Positions 56,626-63,588 of a DNA stretch of 64,000 nt are shown piece after piece (the first letter of the stretch is position 1; each line of letters opens with the position of its first letter). Both the position numbers and the translations under genes were made by a program. The notes under the pieces are model-generated. The model was not told the origin of the DNA and ran no database searches. It worked only from the letters and a program-made list of their open reading frames with translations. The stretch comes from Pseudoxanthomonas japonensis (lineage in GTDB: Bacteria > Pseudomonadota > Gammaproteobacteria > Xanthomonadales > Xanthomonadaceae): positions 310,001 to 374,000 of the forward strand of contig NZ_PDWW01000001.1 of the NCBI RefSeq assembly GCF_010093445.1, given 5' to 3'.

Positions 56626-57261
56626 TCACTTTGGCGTATCAAAGAGACCGTGACGCACTTGACGAAATGTCAGATTCACGCGCGGACCATGAGTCTTGGA
56701 TGCCTTGGCGATACCATGCTTCCAGAACCTTTGCGTACTTCCCTTCATGAGAAGGAGAGTTCCAGAGTGCAACGGAACGCGAACCAACGGCACATCTTGA
56801 GTCTTGTGTTTGAAGACGAATGTCCGTGTTTCGCCGAGGCTAAGTGATGCAATAATCGGACGCGTGCCCAGCTCAGGTTCGTCGTCGCTATGCATCCCCA
56901 TGCTGTCGCGTTCGTTCCGGTAGTAGTTCAGAAGAACGCTGTTGAAGGTCTCATCGCATTGGTTCTGAACGGACTGCCTCAGCATCTCTATCAGGGGTGT
57001 CCATGGAAGCGGGGCCACCGAGATTCCGGAGTAGGAGTAGGATCGACCCGGGTCTCCGTACCATGCAATTAGTCGTGGCTGCACGTGCCTCTTCCCCCAC
57101 ACGGTCACTTCTTCTGAACGCCATGTGGTTTCTTCAATCAGCCTCGTGAGCGCTTCCGAAGCAGGCAGGGGGAGCGGGAAGTCCCTGAGCAAGAAGACCT
57201 CGGCATCCCTCATCGGAAGCTGCTCGAAATCCCGTCCAGTAGAGAACAGATCCTGCGTCAC
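56626..57261 (-). CDS. AlkB-like 2-oxoglutarate/Fe(II) dioxygenase
   Basis: AlkB enzymes remove alkyl groups from bases by oxidation. The 211-aa product shows the AlkB core: WGKRHVQPRLIAWYGDPGRSYSYSG, FNSVLLNYYRNERDSMGMHSDDEPELG (HxD iron site), IIASLSLGETRTFVFKHK, and the distal histidine plus arginines in WKHGIAKASKTHGPRVNLTFRQVR. It resembles the ALKBH2/3-type short enzymes. Its ATG overlaps the methyltransferase stop (ATGA), so it is translated together with it, and the HEPN-like gene follows. Confidence 0.92.
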   Translation of the reverse strand: MTQDLFSTGRDFEQLPMRDAEVFLLRDFPLPLPASEALTRLIEETTWRSEEVTVWGKRHVQPRLIAWYGDPGRSYSYSGISVAPLPWTPLIEMLRQSVQNQCDETFNSVLLNYYRNERDSMGMHSDDEPELGTRPIIASLSLGETRTFVFKHKTQDVPLVRVPLHSGTLLLMKGSTQRFWKHGIAKASKTHGPRVNLTFRQVRHGLFDTPK

Positions 57262-58121
57262 GGCTTTCTCAGCAGGCGATAACTGAGTTGAGTCTTTAGC
57301 TTTGGCATCTGACCAAACCTATTCAAGTAGTCGCCCAGATCATCCTTCTGCTCATCGCTCCCTGGCCACGTCAGTTCGTTGGTCGCGCCTACGATAAGTT
57401 CAAGCCCGGCGGTCTTCCACTGGTGGTCGAAGTAGTTGTTGAAGGTCTCGTGTCCGTTGTCGTCGTACAAGAACAACGCGCCGGACTTGGCTGATCCGAA
57501 TATGGTCTGCCAGAAAGCCGTCACAACTCCGCCTTTGTCCAGCGCCATCACCTCAGAGACAAAGTAGCTCATAGTGAAGAGATCCGCTTGTAGGAATTTC
57601 TTCTGATACTTCCAGTCTTCTGGCTCGGTTACATCTAGAGGCTGGAAGTTCGCATTCAACTGGATCTCAGTGCCAAGGGAGGCGTGGATCTCCGTCCAAG
57701 TGTCCGCCCATGCCTTCTCACGATCCACTAGGTAGCAAGTCAGTTTCTGCACCTGCTCCTTCTTGTTCTCAGCTAGGTACTTCAGTAGACCGATGAAATC
57801 GCTCCCTGGACCGCCCCCAATACAGGTTACCCGGAGCGATTCTTGATCAAAGATGGGCGCTCCCAGTTCGAGTCGTAGGGTGTATAGAACCTGGGCGACA
57901 TAGTCACCGTGCGAGGCGACGTACTTGTAAACATAGGCGAATCTGGTTGCCGGGTTCTTGTAGTCCACCGGCTTTCTGTCTGCGCTAGTGAGCTTCCCAT
58001 AACTGGTAGTCAGGTAAGCCATCTGCTCCTTGATCTGGGTGTCCGCGTCTTTTCCGAATGCATCCACCGCCTCTGCGTACAACGTATCCAAGACAATCTT
58101 CACCAACTGAAAAATGGTCAC
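57258..58121 (-). CDS. SAM-dependent methyltransferase-like protein, function unknown
   Basis: The 287-aa product has a Rossmann methyltransferase motif I in LRVTCIGGGPGSDFIGLLKYLAENKK, an acidic strand-2 end (LTCYLVDREKAW), and a motif in which FLQADLFTMSYFVSEVMAL and GALFLYDDNGHETFNNYF follow. The N-terminal 90 residues are helical (KNPATRFAYVYKYVASHGDYVAQVLYTLRLELG). I assign it to no named enzyme. The GTG at 58121 has GGAGAG six bases upstream and is preferred to upstream ATGs. It heads an operon with alkB and the HEPN-like gene. Confidence 0.72.
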   Translation of the reverse strand: MTIFQLVKIVLDTLYAEAVDAFGKDADTQIKEQMAYLTTSYGKLTSADRKPVDYKNPATRFAYVYKYVASHGDYVAQVLYTLRLELGAPIFDQESLRVTCIGGGPGSDFIGLLKYLAENKKEQVQKLTCYLVDREKAWADTWTEIHASLGTEIQLNANFQPLDVTEPEDWKYQKKFLQADLFTMSYFVSEVMALDKGGVVTAFWQTIFGSAKSGALFLYDDNGHETFNNYFDHQWKTAGLELIVGATNELTWPGSDEQKDDLGDYLNRFGQMPKLKTQLSYRLLRKP

Positions 58122-58474
58122 GGTCCGCTCTCCCTGTGTGCGCCCAGCACCCTGCCAAGCATCCATCTCGAGCGGAGCGTATCTCCGCCGGATCCACCCC
58201 ACAAGTAACGCCTACAAAGATAGGAAGTGGCGATCTCAACACCTGAGAAGGGTGCCGCAGGCTGATCCGCCAGCGACTCGCTTCCGTGCCGGACCTAAGC
58301 ACCCCAAGTACAGCCCGTTCGGCGATCGCGGCCTTCGCACGACGGGGAGGGAGCAGTTCCAGCCCACGCATTTGTGGCCTGATCGCGGTGCGCGACCCAT
58401 CGATGTCGGGGCCTGACCAAATGCCGAACTGGGTGCCGCAGCTTTGCCGCAAGCAGCCCGTATGCGGGGGATCA
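58122..58474. other. Gap of 353 bp ahead of the methyltransferase operon
   Basis: Several short overlapping frames exist but none has a domain or a good start. The promoter of the methyltransferase-alkB operon should lie at the left end. A stem around GCAGCTTTGCCGCAAGC (about 58438) is seen, possibly a terminator for the upstream minus-strand gene without a T-tract. Confidence 0.45.
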
Positions 58475-59628: not shown

Positions 59629-60006
59629 CTAGCGCCCGAGACGAAGTCGCAGATCGCGCCACAACGTGTTGCGCTGATCCGCAGTCCAATGGACACGCCC
59701 TTCCCGGAACCAGAAGTGGGCACCGCAGTGGTCCTTGCGCCAGACCGATGGCATCAGCGAGCCACCATCTCGTAAATTGAGGTGCCAGCACGGCCGCTGA
59801 TCTGCCAACAGGTTCAGGTGCAGGATCGCCTTGCAGCCACACGGACACGTCATAGCCGCAGCCCAGACTTGGCCGTCCTCAGCCAGCACATAGAGTGTCC
59901 TCTTGCGCATGACCGCGGGAAAGTCATCCTCAGCTTCGACAAGGCTGAAGCGCGGACCAATGATGCTGCGCATGCGCTGCAGCATATGTCGGACGACGTT
60001 AGTCAT
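59629..60006 (-). CDS. DUF6527 protein, last gene of the ubiquitin-like operon
   Basis: The 125-aa product has the DUF6527 pattern: LYVLAEDGQVWAAAMTCPCGCKAILHLNLL, then PCWHL, SLMPSVWRKDHCGAHFWFREGRVHW. Cysteines and histidines (CPCGC, CGAHF) suggest a zinc-binding treble clef. DUF6527 genes are recurrent neighbours of prokaryotic E1/E2/ubiquitin-like operons, where a ligase-like or adaptor role has been guessed but, as far as I know, not shown for this class. The ATG at 60006 overlaps the end of the E1 gene by 8 bases, so it is part of the operon. Confidence 0.85.
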   Translation of the reverse strand: MTNVVRHMLQRMRSIIGPRFSLVEAEDDFPAVMRKRTLYVLAEDGQVWAAAMTCPCGCKAILHLNLLADQRPCWHLNLRDGGSLMPSVWRKDHCGAHFWFREGRVHWTADQRNTLWRDLRLRLGR

Positions 60007-61393
60007 GATGGTGGCGATCCGACAACTCGGGCAAACCCAGCAACGGAGTGCGATCACCCAACCCCACTCGCTTGCTCAGGATGGGACATGAGGCGTCGTA
60101 GGTGTCGTGCAGGATGGTCATGTCTGCAAGATCCAACTGGAGGTGCTCGTAGGTACGGTTGGGAGAGTCCCGGAACGGATGCAGGCGCGCGAGAAGCTCG
60201 GTCACTGCCATGGCTGCAAGTTGGAAATTGATGCTGATTACCGCTGGCCGCAGGGTGGGCGCACCGCGGATGTAGCCGTCTTTGACCTGCTGGGCGTGCG
60301 CCTGCGGGTCGGTGCGCCGAAGGCCCGCAGCCCTTACGTCTTCCATGGTGAACAACCCTCGGCTAAGCAAGCTCGAACGCCCGGGCTGCAGGTAGTGGAT
60401 GCTTCCGCAAGCGGCCTGGATTTGACCATCCTCCCCAGCCACCAAGCGGACACCCACGTCGATATAAGGAATTAGATAGTCCGTTGCCAGCAGGTTGAGG
60501 AGGAAGCGGCCGTCAACACTATCCATGCAGCCAAACACCATGTCGCACTGCGCCACTTCGCGCACAGCATCTGCGCTCCAGAGATTGTGGGGAACAACCC
60601 GAACAGTGGTCCCTAGGCCCATCTCTTCAATCGCCTGCGCGAGCACATCGACCTTGCGACGCTTTTTCTGGGCATCGTCGCGGGTAGCGTTGGGGATGCG
60701 ATTGAGATTTCTGGTCTCAACAACGTCGTCATCCACCAACACGAGTTCGCGGGGAGCCAGGCGCGCGATCTGCTCGGCCGTCGGTGCCCCGGTACCTGAG
60801 CAGCCGATGATGGCAATGGACATGTCACTGATCATGCGAAAGGTCTCCTCGCCGAAAGCAGCTGCGTGGGACGCGGCTGATTCATCCAACGTCAGATTGG
60901 AGGTCCATCGCCATAGGTCATCTCCCACGCACTGAATTGCGCTAAAGGCTGCCAAGGTTCCGTCATGATCCAGGTAGCGGCCGAACATCGTGCCACCTGG
61001 CAGCATTACTGCACTACCGTGGAGGCGATCGTCTGCCTCTATCCAGTCTCGGATGGCCGGCAGCAAGCGCAGGTCCCCTTGGGTATCCACGGTTGAGAAT
61101 TCCGGTACACCGGTGGGATGGCTGTGTACTTTGACTAGGGTCCAACCTTCGCGCTCGGCGCGATCCAGCAGCGGCACCATGAAGTCGGTGGACCAGGTGA
61201 CCTGCACGGGAGTGCGCACGGAGCACTCTTGGTAGGGGATGGGATGGACCTCACGCACGAGCAGGCGATGGGCGTGGGCACCCTTGGCACGACCACACAG
61301 TAGGATGGCGGCCGCCTCCTTGCCATCGCCGGGGAACAAGTGGCTCTGCAACTGCAGGTGGTGGTGGATGGTAAGAGCCAACGTCACGTGCAT
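59999..61393 (-). CDS. JAMM protease fused to a ThiF/E1-like ubiquitin-activating domain
   Basis: The 464-aa product combines two enzymes of a ubiquitin-like pathway. The N-terminal half is a JAB/MPN domain with the full zinc site: E26, H90-S-H92 and S100-x2-D103 (KVHSHPTGVPEFSTVDTQGD). The C-terminal half is an E1-like adenylating domain: SIAIIGCSGTGAPTAEQIARLAPRELVLVDDDVVETRNLNRI, with KVDVLAQAI, FGCMDSVDGRFLLNLLA and YIDVGV. The first part would trim or remove the Ubl, the second would activate it. ATG at 61393 overlaps the E2 gene by 10 bases. Confidence 0.92.
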   Translation of the reverse strand: MHVTLALTIHHHLQLQSHLFPGDGKEAAAILLCGRAKGAHAHRLLVREVHPIPYQECSVRTPVQVTWSTDFMVPLLDRAEREGWTLVKVHSHPTGVPEFSTVDTQGDLRLLPAIRDWIEADDRLHGSAVMLPGGTMFGRYLDHDGTLAAFSAIQCVGDDLWRWTSNLTLDESAASHAAAFGEETFRMISDMSIAIIGCSGTGAPTAEQIARLAPRELVLVDDDVVETRNLNRIPNATRDDAQKKRRKVDVLAQAIEEMGLGTTVRVVPHNLWSADAVREVAQCDMVFGCMDSVDGRFLLNLLATDYLIPYIDVGVRLVAGEDGQIQAACGSIHYLQPGRSSLLSRGLFTMEDVRAAGLRRTDPQAHAQQVKDGYIRGAPTLRPAVISINFQLAAMAVTELLARLHPFRDSPNRTYEHLQLDLADMTILHDTYDASCPILSKRVGLGDRTPLLGLPELSDRHHHD

Positions 61394-61794
61394 GACGGCA
61401 TCTCCCTGCGAAACCATTCCTCGATAGACAGGACGTGTCGCTCAAGACCATCGATACCTGCCACCCATGGATGGGTGGCCGTGTAGTGGCGCGACCAGCG
61501 CTGGTACTGCACCCCATGAATGGCCTGGACAGCTTCGGTGCACCGGAGTGCCTGACCATCGCGGCGTGACATCGGCGGATGGACATACACCATGTCCAGC
61601 GATGCCAAGGGATAGCCCGTCTCCAGTCGGATGGCTACTGTCACGGTGGCTGAGGTGTAGCCCTCATGTTGGGTACTGAACTCATGTATCAGAACCCACT
61701 GGCTACCGTCGACCGTGGTCTCCCATGGACGGCCGTAGCCGTCCAGGAAGGTAACGTCATCGGGAGGCAGGTCGAACTCGCGCCGCAGGTCCAT
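61384..61794 (-). CDS. Prokaryotic E2-like protein (family E)
   Basis: This 136-aa protein matches the Prok-E2 family E pattern: FDLPPDDVTFLDGYGRPWETTVDGSQWVLIHEF at the start, GYPLASLDMVYVHPPMSRRDGQALRC in the middle, and YQRWSRHYTATHPWVAGIDGLERHVLSIEEWF at the end. C85 lies just before the W-S-R-H motif and is the best candidate for the thioester cysteine. It would transfer the Ubl from the E1 to a target. The gene lies four bases behind the Ubl stop and overlaps the E1 gene. Confidence 0.88.
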   Translation of the reverse strand: MDLRREFDLPPDDVTFLDGYGRPWETTVDGSQWVLIHEFSTQHEGYTSATVTVAIRLETGYPLASLDMVYVHPPMSRRDGQALRCTEAVQAIHGVQYQRWSRHYTATHPWVAGIDGLERHVLSIEEWFRREMPSCT

Positions 61795-61798
61795 GGGA

Positions 61799-62140
61799 TC
61801 AGCCCTCGGTCTGATCGTTGGGCAGCGCCTTGAATTTCTCGACGCCCGGGCGAGTCAGATCGACGCGTTCGTTGGGTTCGATCCGGTCGAAGGCGCCGCC
61901 ATGCAGCTTCAAACGCAGGGTCCATTGCTCGACCGGAACCAGACCCGCCTTCTGCAGGATCTGCTCACGCGTGGGATTGGGCACTTCGAACACGAAGGGA
62001 TCCCGGTTCACACGGATGCGGTAGGCCTTTGCCTTGGGGGGCTTCACGCCCCTGCTGGCGTACTCGGCAAGGTCAATGACCTCGTCCAAGACGGGTTCTT
62101 CAGTGTCTGCGACATCATCGTGCTCGTCGTTGGTGCTCAT
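61799..62140 (-). CDS. Multiubiquitin-family ubiquitin-like protein, single domain
   Basis: The 113-aa product has an acidic N-terminal tail (about 37 residues) and one beta-grasp domain of the Multiubiquitin family: KAYRIRVNRDPFVFEVPNPTREQILQKAGLVPVEQWTLRLKLHGGAFDRIEPNERVDLTRPGVEKFKALP. It ends in glycine (G113) as in mature ubiquitin-like modifiers, so no tail may need trimming. Most relatives have two or more tandem domains. It is first in an operon with E2, E1-JAMM and DUF6527, and its promoter faces an XRE/ImmA pair. Confidence 0.88.
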   Translation of the reverse strand: MSTNDEHDDVADTEEPVLDEVIDLAEYASRGVKPPKAKAYRIRVNRDPFVFEVPNPTREQILQKAGLVPVEQWTLRLKLHGGAFDRIEPNERVDLTRPGVEKFKALPNDQTEG

Positions 62141-62300
62141 TGCGTTCTCCTCTGGTTAGGCGCAGTTTGTGTCGACTCCGTCGCACGCCCTGCATCACAT
62201 TTTCTTGTCCCTATCTCCGTTATGGTGCCTACACAGACAACAGTCGTGATAGCCTTCTAGACCCTCCTAAACCCTTATGTGGCTTAGTTCGGAGGGCGCC

Positions 62301-62320
62301 TGTTGTCTGGTTAGACAACA
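62301..62320. promoter_or_regulatory. Candidate operator TGTTGTCT-GGTT-AGACAACA
   Basis: An 8-bp perfect inverted repeat with 4-nt spacer lies 38 bp upstream of the XRE start. An AGACAACA half-site 60 bp to the left points to a second, nearer the Ubl promoter. It is the obvious site for the adjacent XRE repressor. Confidence 0.7.
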
Positions 62321-62346
62321 CGCTAGACCCAAAAGTTCCGCCTGTC

Positions 62347-62353
62347 AAGGAGG
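62347..62353 (+). promoter_or_regulatory. Ribosome-binding site AAGGAGG that sets the XRE start
   Basis: A full-consensus Shine-Dalgarno sequence sits four bases before GTG at 62358 and fixes the start there rather than at the ATG at 62277. Confidence 0.8.
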
Positions 62354-62357
62354 CGTC

Positions 62358-62744
62358 GTGTCGTTACCCCCCCTCGGAGAGGCTCTCCGGTTTTTTCGTG
62401 AAGATCGAAAGCTGACGTTGCGTGAGACTGGCCGGTTGGCCGAGGTCGACCACGCCTATATCCATCGCCTAGAGACCGGACAGAAGGAGTCGCCTTCCAG
62501 CGAGATCCTGGAACGCCTGGTCCGAGTCCTGAAGCCATCGAGCCGGGACACCGAGATTTTGATTTACCTGATGGCCCATCCGTCGGGCGATGCTGAACTC
62601 GTCCGGTACGTGCTGGAGAATTCCTCTATTCCGATCGAGACATTTGAAGTCGCCTATGGCGTCCGTCATCGCGGGACCACCAGACCAGAACCGCGTGCTC
62701 TGATCGAGCGCGCACAACGCGTGATCGACTCAGAAGATGAATGA
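62358..62744 (+). CDS. XRE-family repressor, CapH-like partner of the ImmA/IrrE gene
   Basis: The 128-aa product has an N-terminal HTH (LGEALRFFREDRKLTLRETGRLAEVDHAYIHRLETGQKESPSSEILERLVRVL), a linker, and a helical C-terminal part that could dimerise and be cut. It starts at GTG 62358, defined by the AAGGAGG site. It overlaps the metalloprotease gene by 8 bases. The pair resembles CapH-CapP and other repressor/ImmA-IrrE switches, in which the protease cleaves the repressor after DNA damage. It probably represses the divergent Ubl operon. Confidence 0.82.
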   Translation: MSLPPLGEALRFFREDRKLTLRETGRLAEVDHAYIHRLETGQKESPSSEILERLVRVLKPSSRDTEILIYLMAHPSGDAELVRYVLENSSIPIETFEVAYGVRHRGTTRPEPRALIERAQRVIDSEDE

Positions 62745-63588
62745 GTTCACTGCAGAACAGCGTGCCCGCAAGTTCGTTCAATCGGTGAACCCGACCGTCG
62801 TGCCGGTTCCCCTTGAACCCTATCTCGCTCAGATCGGCGCAAAATTGAGCGTAGATGATGAATTAGAGAGTGGCGAAGCAGGCTATACGATGACGGCCAA
62901 GGGCCGTCATTCCATCTTCGTGAATGGCAACGATTCGCCACGTCGCCAGCGCTTCACTGCCTGTCATGAGATTGGCCATGTCGTACTGGAGCTTGAATCC
63001 GAGCATGGTGATCCGTCATGGAGCTATGAGAGGAGGCCACCCAACGAAGTGTGTTGCGACATCTTCGCTGCCGAACTCTTGCTACCCGTTTCGCTATTTC
63101 GGCCAGCCCTACTAAAGAGGGCAATGGATGTGGCCTCCTTGCATGACTTGGCTGAGCAGTTCGAAGCATCCCTGCTGGCTACTGGCTCGCGCATGGTTGC
63201 TTTCTCTCCTGAACCATGCGCGTTTGTCGTGTCTCAGGGTGGCAAGGTCAAGTACGCCTTTCGCTCTGCCTCACTGCGCAGTACCAAACTGTGGATACCT
63301 TCAGGCGTTGCATTGCCGGAGACTTCCTACTCCGCCCAGCTACGCAAGGATCCAACGCATGCGGGTCCATTTGAGCTGGACGCAGATGTTTGGTTCGACA
63401 ATGCCGACGGCGGTACCGTCGTCGAAGATGCGATCTTCGATGCATCTAGGGATCAGGTACTAACGCTCTTGTGCCTGGATTCAGAAGACATGCCAGAGCC
63501 GACGCGTGATGGGCCGATTCGCCAGGACGAAGAAGACACGGGACTGAAGGAACTCGATGGCCACCTGCCTTGGCCGAGCAAGGGCTAA
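62737..63588 (+). CDS. ImmA/IrrE-family metalloprotease
   Basis: The 283-aa product has the HExxH zinc motif CHEIGHVVLELE (H77, E78, H81) and the third ligand region EVCCDIFAAELLLPVSLF with the family E-x2-C/A-D-x-F-A. A C-terminal sensor-like region follows (residues about 140-283). ImmA/IrrE enzymes cut a cognate XRE repressor; CapP-type members respond to single-stranded DNA. It overlaps the XRE gene, indicating joint translation, and is divergent from the Ubl operon. Confidence 0.9.
   Translation: MNEFTAEQRARKFVQSVNPTVVPVPLEPYLAQIGAKLSVDDELESGEAGYTMTAKGRHSIFVNGNDSPRRQRFTACHEIGHVVLELESEHGDPSWSYERRPPNEVCCDIFAAELLLPVSLFRPALLKRAMDVASLHDLAEQFEASLLATGSRMVAFSPEPCAFVVSQGGKVKYAFRSASLRSTKLWIPSGVALPETSYSAQLRKDPTHAGPFELDADVWFDNADGGTVVEDAIFDASRDQVLTLLCLDSEDMPEPTRDGPIRQDEEDTGLKELDGHLPWPSKG

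Follow-up and report, generated by a model that had tools for sequence, protein, structure and literature searches.

Bub (bacterial ubiquitination-like) operons are the closest described relatives of the protein-tagging operon reported here, with which Bil systems were also compared. In Bil systems, JAB and E1 are separate proteins and the E2 carries a cysteine; Bub systems use oxyesters, and serine rather than cysteine as the active residue of the E2 is their hallmark. The primary Bub paper is said to be that of Ye et al. from 2026, and the regulator pair CapH+CapP was reportedly the subject of a paper by Lau et al. from 2022. According to passages of a study of Bub regulators, 219 of 544 Bub operons adjoin CapW or CapH+CapP, a figure that pools the two regulators there, and CapW and CapK+CapS also serve as Bub regulators (PMC13373217, EMBO J 2026). 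We analysed a stretch of 64,000 nucleotides from the genome of Pseudoxanthomonas japonensis (contig NZ_PDWW01000001.1, positions 310,001 to 374,000; hereafter the window). At positions 59629-63588 it contains six open frames, four on the minus strand and two divergent from them on the plus strand, which very probably represent a Bub operon under CapH+CapP-type control, acting by the mechanism set out below. The initial annotation of the locus had inferred a two-layer system of damage sensing followed by protein conjugation; since passages of PMC13373217 already contain the pairing of Bub with CapW or CapH+CapP, the mechanism is sound and not new. Added by the present analysis are two candidate operators, an E2 with a serine and without a conserved cysteine, a constant DUF6527 gene and the presence of XRE and ImmA genes beside eight of 15 sampled operons.

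Conjugation genes of the operon

All six genes were named by Pfam matches that exceed Pfam's own cut-off. The first minus-strand gene (61799..62140) encodes a BubA-like ubiquitin-like (Ubl) modifier of 113 amino acid residues with one Ubl domain and a C-terminal EG (Multi_ubiq, 8.8e-11), and the second (61384..61794) a BubB-like family-E E2 of 136 residues with Ser101 located within QRWSRH (Prok-E2_E, 9.1e-33). They are followed on the same strand by the gene for a BubCD-like fusion of a JAMM deubiquitinase and an E1 (59999..61417, 472 residues; ThiF 6.3e-29 and Prok-JAB 2.5e-7) and by the gene for a DUF6527 protein (59629..60057; DUF6527 8.3e-19) with a probable start at the ATG at 60006. A gap of 4 bases separates bubA from bubB. 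As longest frames, bubB and bubCD overlap by 34 bases and bubCD and the DUF6527 gene by 59 bases; the overlaps would shrink to about 10 and 8 bases, respectively, should translation truly begin at the inner ATGs (61393 and 60006). Frames and Pfam matches confirm the initially annotated layout of a four-gene minus-strand operon divergent from an XRE/ImmA pair, and the frames also confirm its spacing, including the overlaps of the last three genes. Among named organisms, Luteimonas weifangensis, from another genus of the same family, has the closest relative of the E1 gene (81%). Its locus, L002, is on the contig that appears as G082 in the family sample and is repeated as L025, while the locus of the window is L036.

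Among solved structures, the E2 matched Citrobacter BubB (9eae, 4.6e-24) and the JAMM-E1 protein matched Citrobacter BubCD (9ea4, 1.8e-83) across residues 13-468. Because these are their best solved relatives and JAMM and E1 are fused, the operon is classed, on sequence grounds, as Bub and not as Bil. It combines a Multiubiquitin-family Ubl, a BubB-homologous E2, a BubCD-homologous fusion with an intact JAMM motif and, as judged from conservation alone, a serine as the active residue of the E2. The Ubl matched the multi-ubiquitin protein 9d59 (1.4e-10), Citrobacter BubA (9ea8, 3.9e-6) and, weakly, BilA (8u38, 2.7e-6). The match to BilA and the joint presence of Ubl, E2, E1 and JAMM would suit an antiphage system of the Bil (ISG15-like) type whose regulator is accessory, Bil being the type with which the operon had initially been compared. 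Such an identity is extremely improbable: among solved structures BubB and BubCD are the best matches of the E2 and JAMM-E1 proteins, JAMM and E1 form one protein instead of the separate ones that accompany a cysteine E2 in Bil, the active position of the E2 shows no conserved cysteine, and DUF6527 is constant here. A filing as Bil was therefore rejected in favour of Bub, to which the solved homologues BubA, BubB and BubCD belong. CBASS (cyclic oligonucleotide-based antiphage signalling system) was rejected as a further candidate, as no CD-NTase model of PADLOC matched any of the six genes or of those tested in the flanks.

The C-terminal glycine of BubA is kept in 23 of 23 aligned sequences. 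BubA ends exactly in EG in the window, L002, L004, L027, L037, L038 and L068, in NG in L069, in AG in L028 and in QG in L072, and short tails follow the glycine in L003, L045 and L046. As it ends exactly in EG, the Ubl of the window can apparently be used untrimmed. Ser101 of the E2 is invariant (27/27 aligned sequences). Five additional E2s have the serine in register (L069, L072) or shifted within WFSWH (L034, L035, L071), and none of the 27 aligned and five added sequences has a cysteine at this place, which makes a serine-linked intermediate on Ser101 likely. In BubCD the JAMM motif (HSHP...SxxD) is intact and reads HSHPTGVPEFSTVD. The pattern was matched in 32 of 36 long E1s, the exceptions being L027, L039, L043 and L070, and all 29 aligned E1s retain H100, S108 and D111 as key residues. 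PADLOC E1-E2 models also match the E1 domain (best 2.4e-10), as a ThiF relative.

The regulator pair and its candidate operators

On the plus strand, a capH-like gene (62358..62744, GTG start) encodes an XRE repressor of 128 residues (HTH_31 2.1e-11; PADLOC capH 9.5e-11). The adjacent and overlapping capP-like gene (62737..63588) encodes an ImmA/IrrE (M78) metalloprotease of 283 residues, in which the HExxH motif is intact as HEIGH (Peptidase_M78 3.1e-16; PADLOC capP 1.2e-52). The best match of the ImmA protein among solved structures is CapP (7t5t, 5.2e-13), the match to IrrE (3dte, 5.1e-6) being weaker, and the XRE protein matched the solved helix-turn-helix (HTH) protein 7t5u (6.1e-4). An M78 protease that matches capP and bears HExxH, an adjacent XRE protein that matches capH and a candidate operator between regulator and operon, recognised by sequence and conservation, together assign the two genes to the CapH+CapP type by their sequence features. 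According to passages of PMC10904395, PprI is an M78 protease that is triggered by single-stranded DNA (ssDNA) and cleaves a repressor, and its Arg85 is one of three arginines needed for ssDNA binding. The CapP-like protein has an arginine seven residues before HExxH, which by motif offset would be the place of PprI Arg85. Within the set of loci, this position is basic in 20 of the 21 HExxH-bearing M78 proteins without helicase fusion, the exception being L003 with a glutamine.

The ATG at 62277 is only the mechanical start of the XRE frame. The GTG at 62358 is preceded by a Shine-Dalgarno-like AAGGAGG (62347-62353), and the 128-residue XRE frame of L002 begins at its counterpart; this GTG is thus the likely start of capH, and the palindrome of operator 1 consequently falls in the intergenic region. 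One terminator-like site within capH was taken as chance. The intergenic region between bubA and capH comprises 217 bp and holds two copies of one site that share a half-site. Candidate operator 1 (62301..62320), located 5' of capH, is the perfect palindrome TGTTGTCT-GGTT-AGACAACA. Candidate operator 2 (62223..62242), at a distance of 78 bp on the bubA side, is an imperfect copy, TGGTGCCT-ACAC-AGACAACA, with six of eight pairs. The palindrome at this place is beyond chance: its pattern had no match in 100 shuffles of the window, and these two sites are the only places in the 4.08-Mb genome (4,075,313 bases) that match TGKTGYCTNNNNRGACAACA exactly, a reversed control pattern having one match. 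Half-site scores were 16/16 for operator 1 and 14/16 for operator 2, compared with 11 for the next best site in the window and 11-12 for the best sites in 20 simulated 64-kb sequences. Both operators have counterparts 77 bp apart in L002 (15 and 15 of 16) and L027 (14 and 14 of 16), and in L034 one similar site (14 of 16) lies between XRE and Bub genes. Other palindromes, built from TCAAGC/GCTTGA, were found in L041, L043 and L069, which have a second XRE/M78 subfamily, and in L068, where no M78 gene was recognised beside the XRE gene. The two conserved sites support, through predicted binding, a control of both the bub operon and its own gene by the XRE protein.

Regulators and DUF6527 in related operons

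Prok-E2_E exceeded its cut-off in 10 of the 297 family genomes sampled and in six of the 398 sampled from the phylum. These matches come from 15 distinct genomes, the window's genome being in both samples and counted once, and lean to the window's family; three weak PF14462 matches below cut-off (L019-L021) had been dropped before counting. The initial annotation would have been refuted if relatives hardly ever had the XRE+M78 pair, but the pair does recur and adjoins eight of the 15 operons (window, L002, L023, L024, L027, L028, L030 and L034). Three others have a module of a sigma-like gene, a small gene and an M78-UvrD gene (L022, L031, L032), one a capH gene (1.9e-20) followed by genes that look IS21-type by eye (L026), and one a WYL protein (L033). 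No regulator was recognised by profiles beside two operons (L029, L035), L035 having a HigA/ImmA-like fused protein farther off, as identified by eye. BubCD relatives occurred in 152 of 72,556 plasmid records, and four of the 12 plasmid loci examined have an XRE protein with M78, in separate genes (L038, L041, L043) or fused (L037). Scanning of genome contigs for BubCD relatives yielded three (L002-L004), and scanning of viral contigs with the BubCD alignment yielded one, L074. In the Bub locus L048 (3607-4224), an upstream HTH gene is followed by the gene for a protein weakly matching PADLOC PD-T4-9_A (6.6e-7).

Pairs of XRE and ImmA genes are found in many contexts, and the pair of the window might be an independent module, such as ImmR/ImmA from a mobile element or a toxin-antitoxin pair, and no more than a neighbour of the Bub operon. 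The presence of other regulators at the same place in other Bub loci (WYL proteins in L033 and L047, CapK/CapS by eye in L040, and sigma modules) speaks for such independence. We consider it unlikely, in view of the location of operator 2 on the bubA side, the recurrence of the pair beside eight of 15 sampled operons, the lack of further exact matches to the operator pattern elsewhere in the genome, and the published statistics of 219/544 in passages of PMC13373217. The CapH/CapP-type switch on a Ubl-conjugation operon, as initially proposed, is supported by homology, gene order and operators.

DUF6527 is a constant partner of the operon. Its gene was present in 30 of 30 scanned loci (29 distinct ones, as L025 repeats L002; the window is included as L036) and adjoins the E1 gene or, in L034, is separated from it by one frame. 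The reverse look covered DUF6527 neighbourhoods from 11 further genomes of the class, in which the match exceeds the cut-off; a weak match below it (G845) had been dropped before counting. Nine of the 11 neighbourhoods contain a full E1 frame nearby; L066 has E1 and DUF6527 fragments only, and L073 (3.4 kb) shows no E1. Among the control genomes, DUF6527 is present in Caulobacter vibrioides. Two tandem DUF6527 genes occur in L071 (5827-6941). In L023 (8422-8769) and L024 (8269-8664) the gene is on the opposite strand and convergent with bubCD, and hence is probably not co-transcribed with it. The residues C71, C75, C111 and H114 (C-X3-C ... C-X2-H) are kept in 28, 27, 28 and 28 of 29 sequences, respectively, which suggests a probable zinc site. 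An AlphaFold2 model from four sequences had a mean pLDDT (predicted local distance difference test) of 60.5, Foldseek found no match to this model at E <= 0.001, and a profile of 17 members gave no match to a solved structure up to E 5; for these reasons no fold is claimed. The literature searched yielded no mention of DUF6527. At a guess, it takes part in target choice or in an E3-like step.

A sigma-like gene was present in 11 of 39 other loci, which had been fetched without regard to sigma-like genes (L003, L022, L031, L032, L039, L042, L044, L045, L046, L063 and L074). It is accompanied by an M78 domain in ten of the 11, the exception being L039. In six of them (L022, L031, L032, L044, L045 and L063), the M78 domain is N-terminal to UvrD and PD-(D/E)XK in one protein of 1,137-1,180 residues, according to Pfam in all six. 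The first sigma profile was built from L032, L039, L042, L044 and L045, and the second from L032 and L022; matches of these loci to their own profiles are therefore not independent, and L031 scored above 1e-3 in the first profile. Several of the sigma-like genes are assigned only weakly (L045, Sigma70_r2 8.7e-10; L032, sigma70-ECF 4.9e-9, below its cut-off; L046, Sigma70_r2 0.018), and the sigma-like proteins of L039, L042 and L044 have no sigma match in Pfam; that of L081 is annotated as sigma-70 family. Stand-alone M78 and sigma-like genes are located beside Bub operons in L042 (3132-4928), L046 (3118-5148), L074 and L003 (8831-10735), in the last case downstream of the operon and with the M78 protein that has the glutamine before HExxH.

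A search of plasmids with the L044 helicase yielded 93 records. Eight loci examined among the 40 matches listed (L075-L082) all align across 99% of this helicase, and in each a sigma-like gene and a small gene precede the helicase gene; the Ubl/ThiF/DUF6527 operon directly follows in seven of the eight, L077 being the exception, and an insertion sequence (IS) element intervenes in L081. Among 14 helicase-fused M78 proteins, only that of L045 has a basic residue seven positions before HExxH and 11 have an acidic one there, the 14 proteins being related to each other and not representing independent events. A shorter ThiF/E1 of 393-420 residues was found in ten loci (L063, L064, L065, L067, L075, L076 and L078-L081), in all ten without the JAMM pattern and with DUF6527 retained. 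The sigma/helicase module is not mentioned in the passages considered of the Bub-regulator paper (PMC13373217), and the titles and abstracts listed in a literature search contained nothing on such a fusion of an ImmA/IrrE protease with UvrD, which is no proof of its absence. The module is a candidate for a further class of damage-sensing regulator and is the part that might be new. Tentatively, and with rather less than even confidence, we propose that Ubl/ThiF/DUF6527 operons generally have an M78 protease as their front end, with one of two outputs: an XRE repressor, as in the window, or a sigma-like protein that a small protein would hold until cleaved by the protease. In the latter case, the protease, often fused to UvrD/PD-(D/E)XK and mostly lacking a basic residue where PprI has Arg85, would be triggered by the helicase on broken DNA, and the operon would be switched on positively.

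Proposed mechanism and comparison with known systems

From homology, gene order, operator sequences and residue conservation, which were directly observed, we infer every biochemical step of the following mechanism. At rest, a dimer of the CapH-like XRE protein on the two operators would repress bubA-bubB-bubCD-DUF6527 and its own gene, as the two conserved palindromes suggest. Upon DNA damage, ssDNA would activate the CapP M78 protease, in line with characterised CapP and Deinococcus PprI, and the cleavage of CapH would open both promoters. As in the Bub homologues, the C-terminal glycine of BubA, already exposed, would then be adenylated by the E1 domain of BubCD, BubA would pass to a target amine by way of BubB, probably as an oxyester on Ser101, and the JAMM domain of BubCD would remove BubA from its targets.

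Several observations weigh against this reading. The capH match (PADLOC, 9.5e-11) is weaker than that of capP and covers mainly the HTH. Sites resembling TGKTGYCTNNNNRGACAACA are present on other contigs of the genome, one with one mismatch and two with two mismatches, and in L030, L037 and L038 the script that located the palindromes finds none in the stretch from the regulator to the Bub genes. A scan of the intergenic region detected no consensus sigma-70 promoter. Ubl and E2 are in one frame in 15 loci, bubA being separate from bubB here. The flanking genes tested had no defence-family match except a 2-oxoglutarate (2OG) oxygenase part, and thus provide no support from a defence island.

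An antiphage role of the operon cannot be assumed, because passages of PMC13373217 report that protection of the host from phages by Bub operons has not been demonstrated and that these may mediate more global stress responses. The switch may act as described on an operon that is a general tagging pathway of the response to DNA damage or stress and not phage defence, an alternative to which we assign a nearly even chance. It agrees with this published view of Bub and with the genes tested in the near flanks, among which PADLOC recognised no defence system. Phage defence is favoured by the control of CBASS and other immune operons by the same regulators (passages of PMC13373217) and by Abi-type genes near three of the plasmid loci fetched (L038, L075, L080).

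Near the locus (window 56626-58202), the gene for an AlkB-like 2OG oxygenase (PF13532 1.9e-36; part of PADLOC CARF_2OG 3.2e-41) overlaps by 4 bases with a gene for an S-adenosylmethionine (SAM) methyltransferase-like protein (Methyltransf_34 4.8e-7). Large minus-strand frames of 676, 683 and 604 residues beside the locus (window 63622 onward, corresponding to L036 7623-9653, and L036 11470-15339) have no match in Pfam or PADLOC, and the first two none in NCBIfam.

The locus is a natural, compact, single-Ubl Bub system whose 217-bp intergenic region holds both of the clear candidate operators, and hence convenient for testing the ssDNA-triggered derepression of a protein-tagging pathway. The comparison indicates a sigma/helicase-linked variant of the protease switch, and DUF6527 as a constant component. 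With Citrobacter BubA, BubB and BubCD (9ea4, 9ea5, 9ea8, 9eae, 9eav) the operon shares a homologous Ubl, a family-E E2 and a full-length JAMM-E1 fusion. The Citrobacter construct "BubA 155-229" suggests a longer BubA in that organism, whereas here a single Ubl has its own stop after EG. CapH+CapP, first described with CBASS and represented by the solved CapP 7t5t, is similar in its adjacent, overlapping genes and its HExxH; the pair here adjoins Bub and not CBASS, and passages of PMC13373217 contain the Bub pairing itself. PprI/IrrE-DdrO of Deinococcus likewise has an M78 protease with an arginine seven residues before HExxH, but it serves a global radiation response and its sequence match is weaker (3dte, 5.1e-6). 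CapW and CapK+CapS, in contrast, consist of a WYL protein or of a kinase and a STAS repressor and involve no metalloprotease; a WYL protein occupies the place of the regulator in L033 and, by annotation, in L047, and the pair in L040 was assigned to CapK+CapS by eye.

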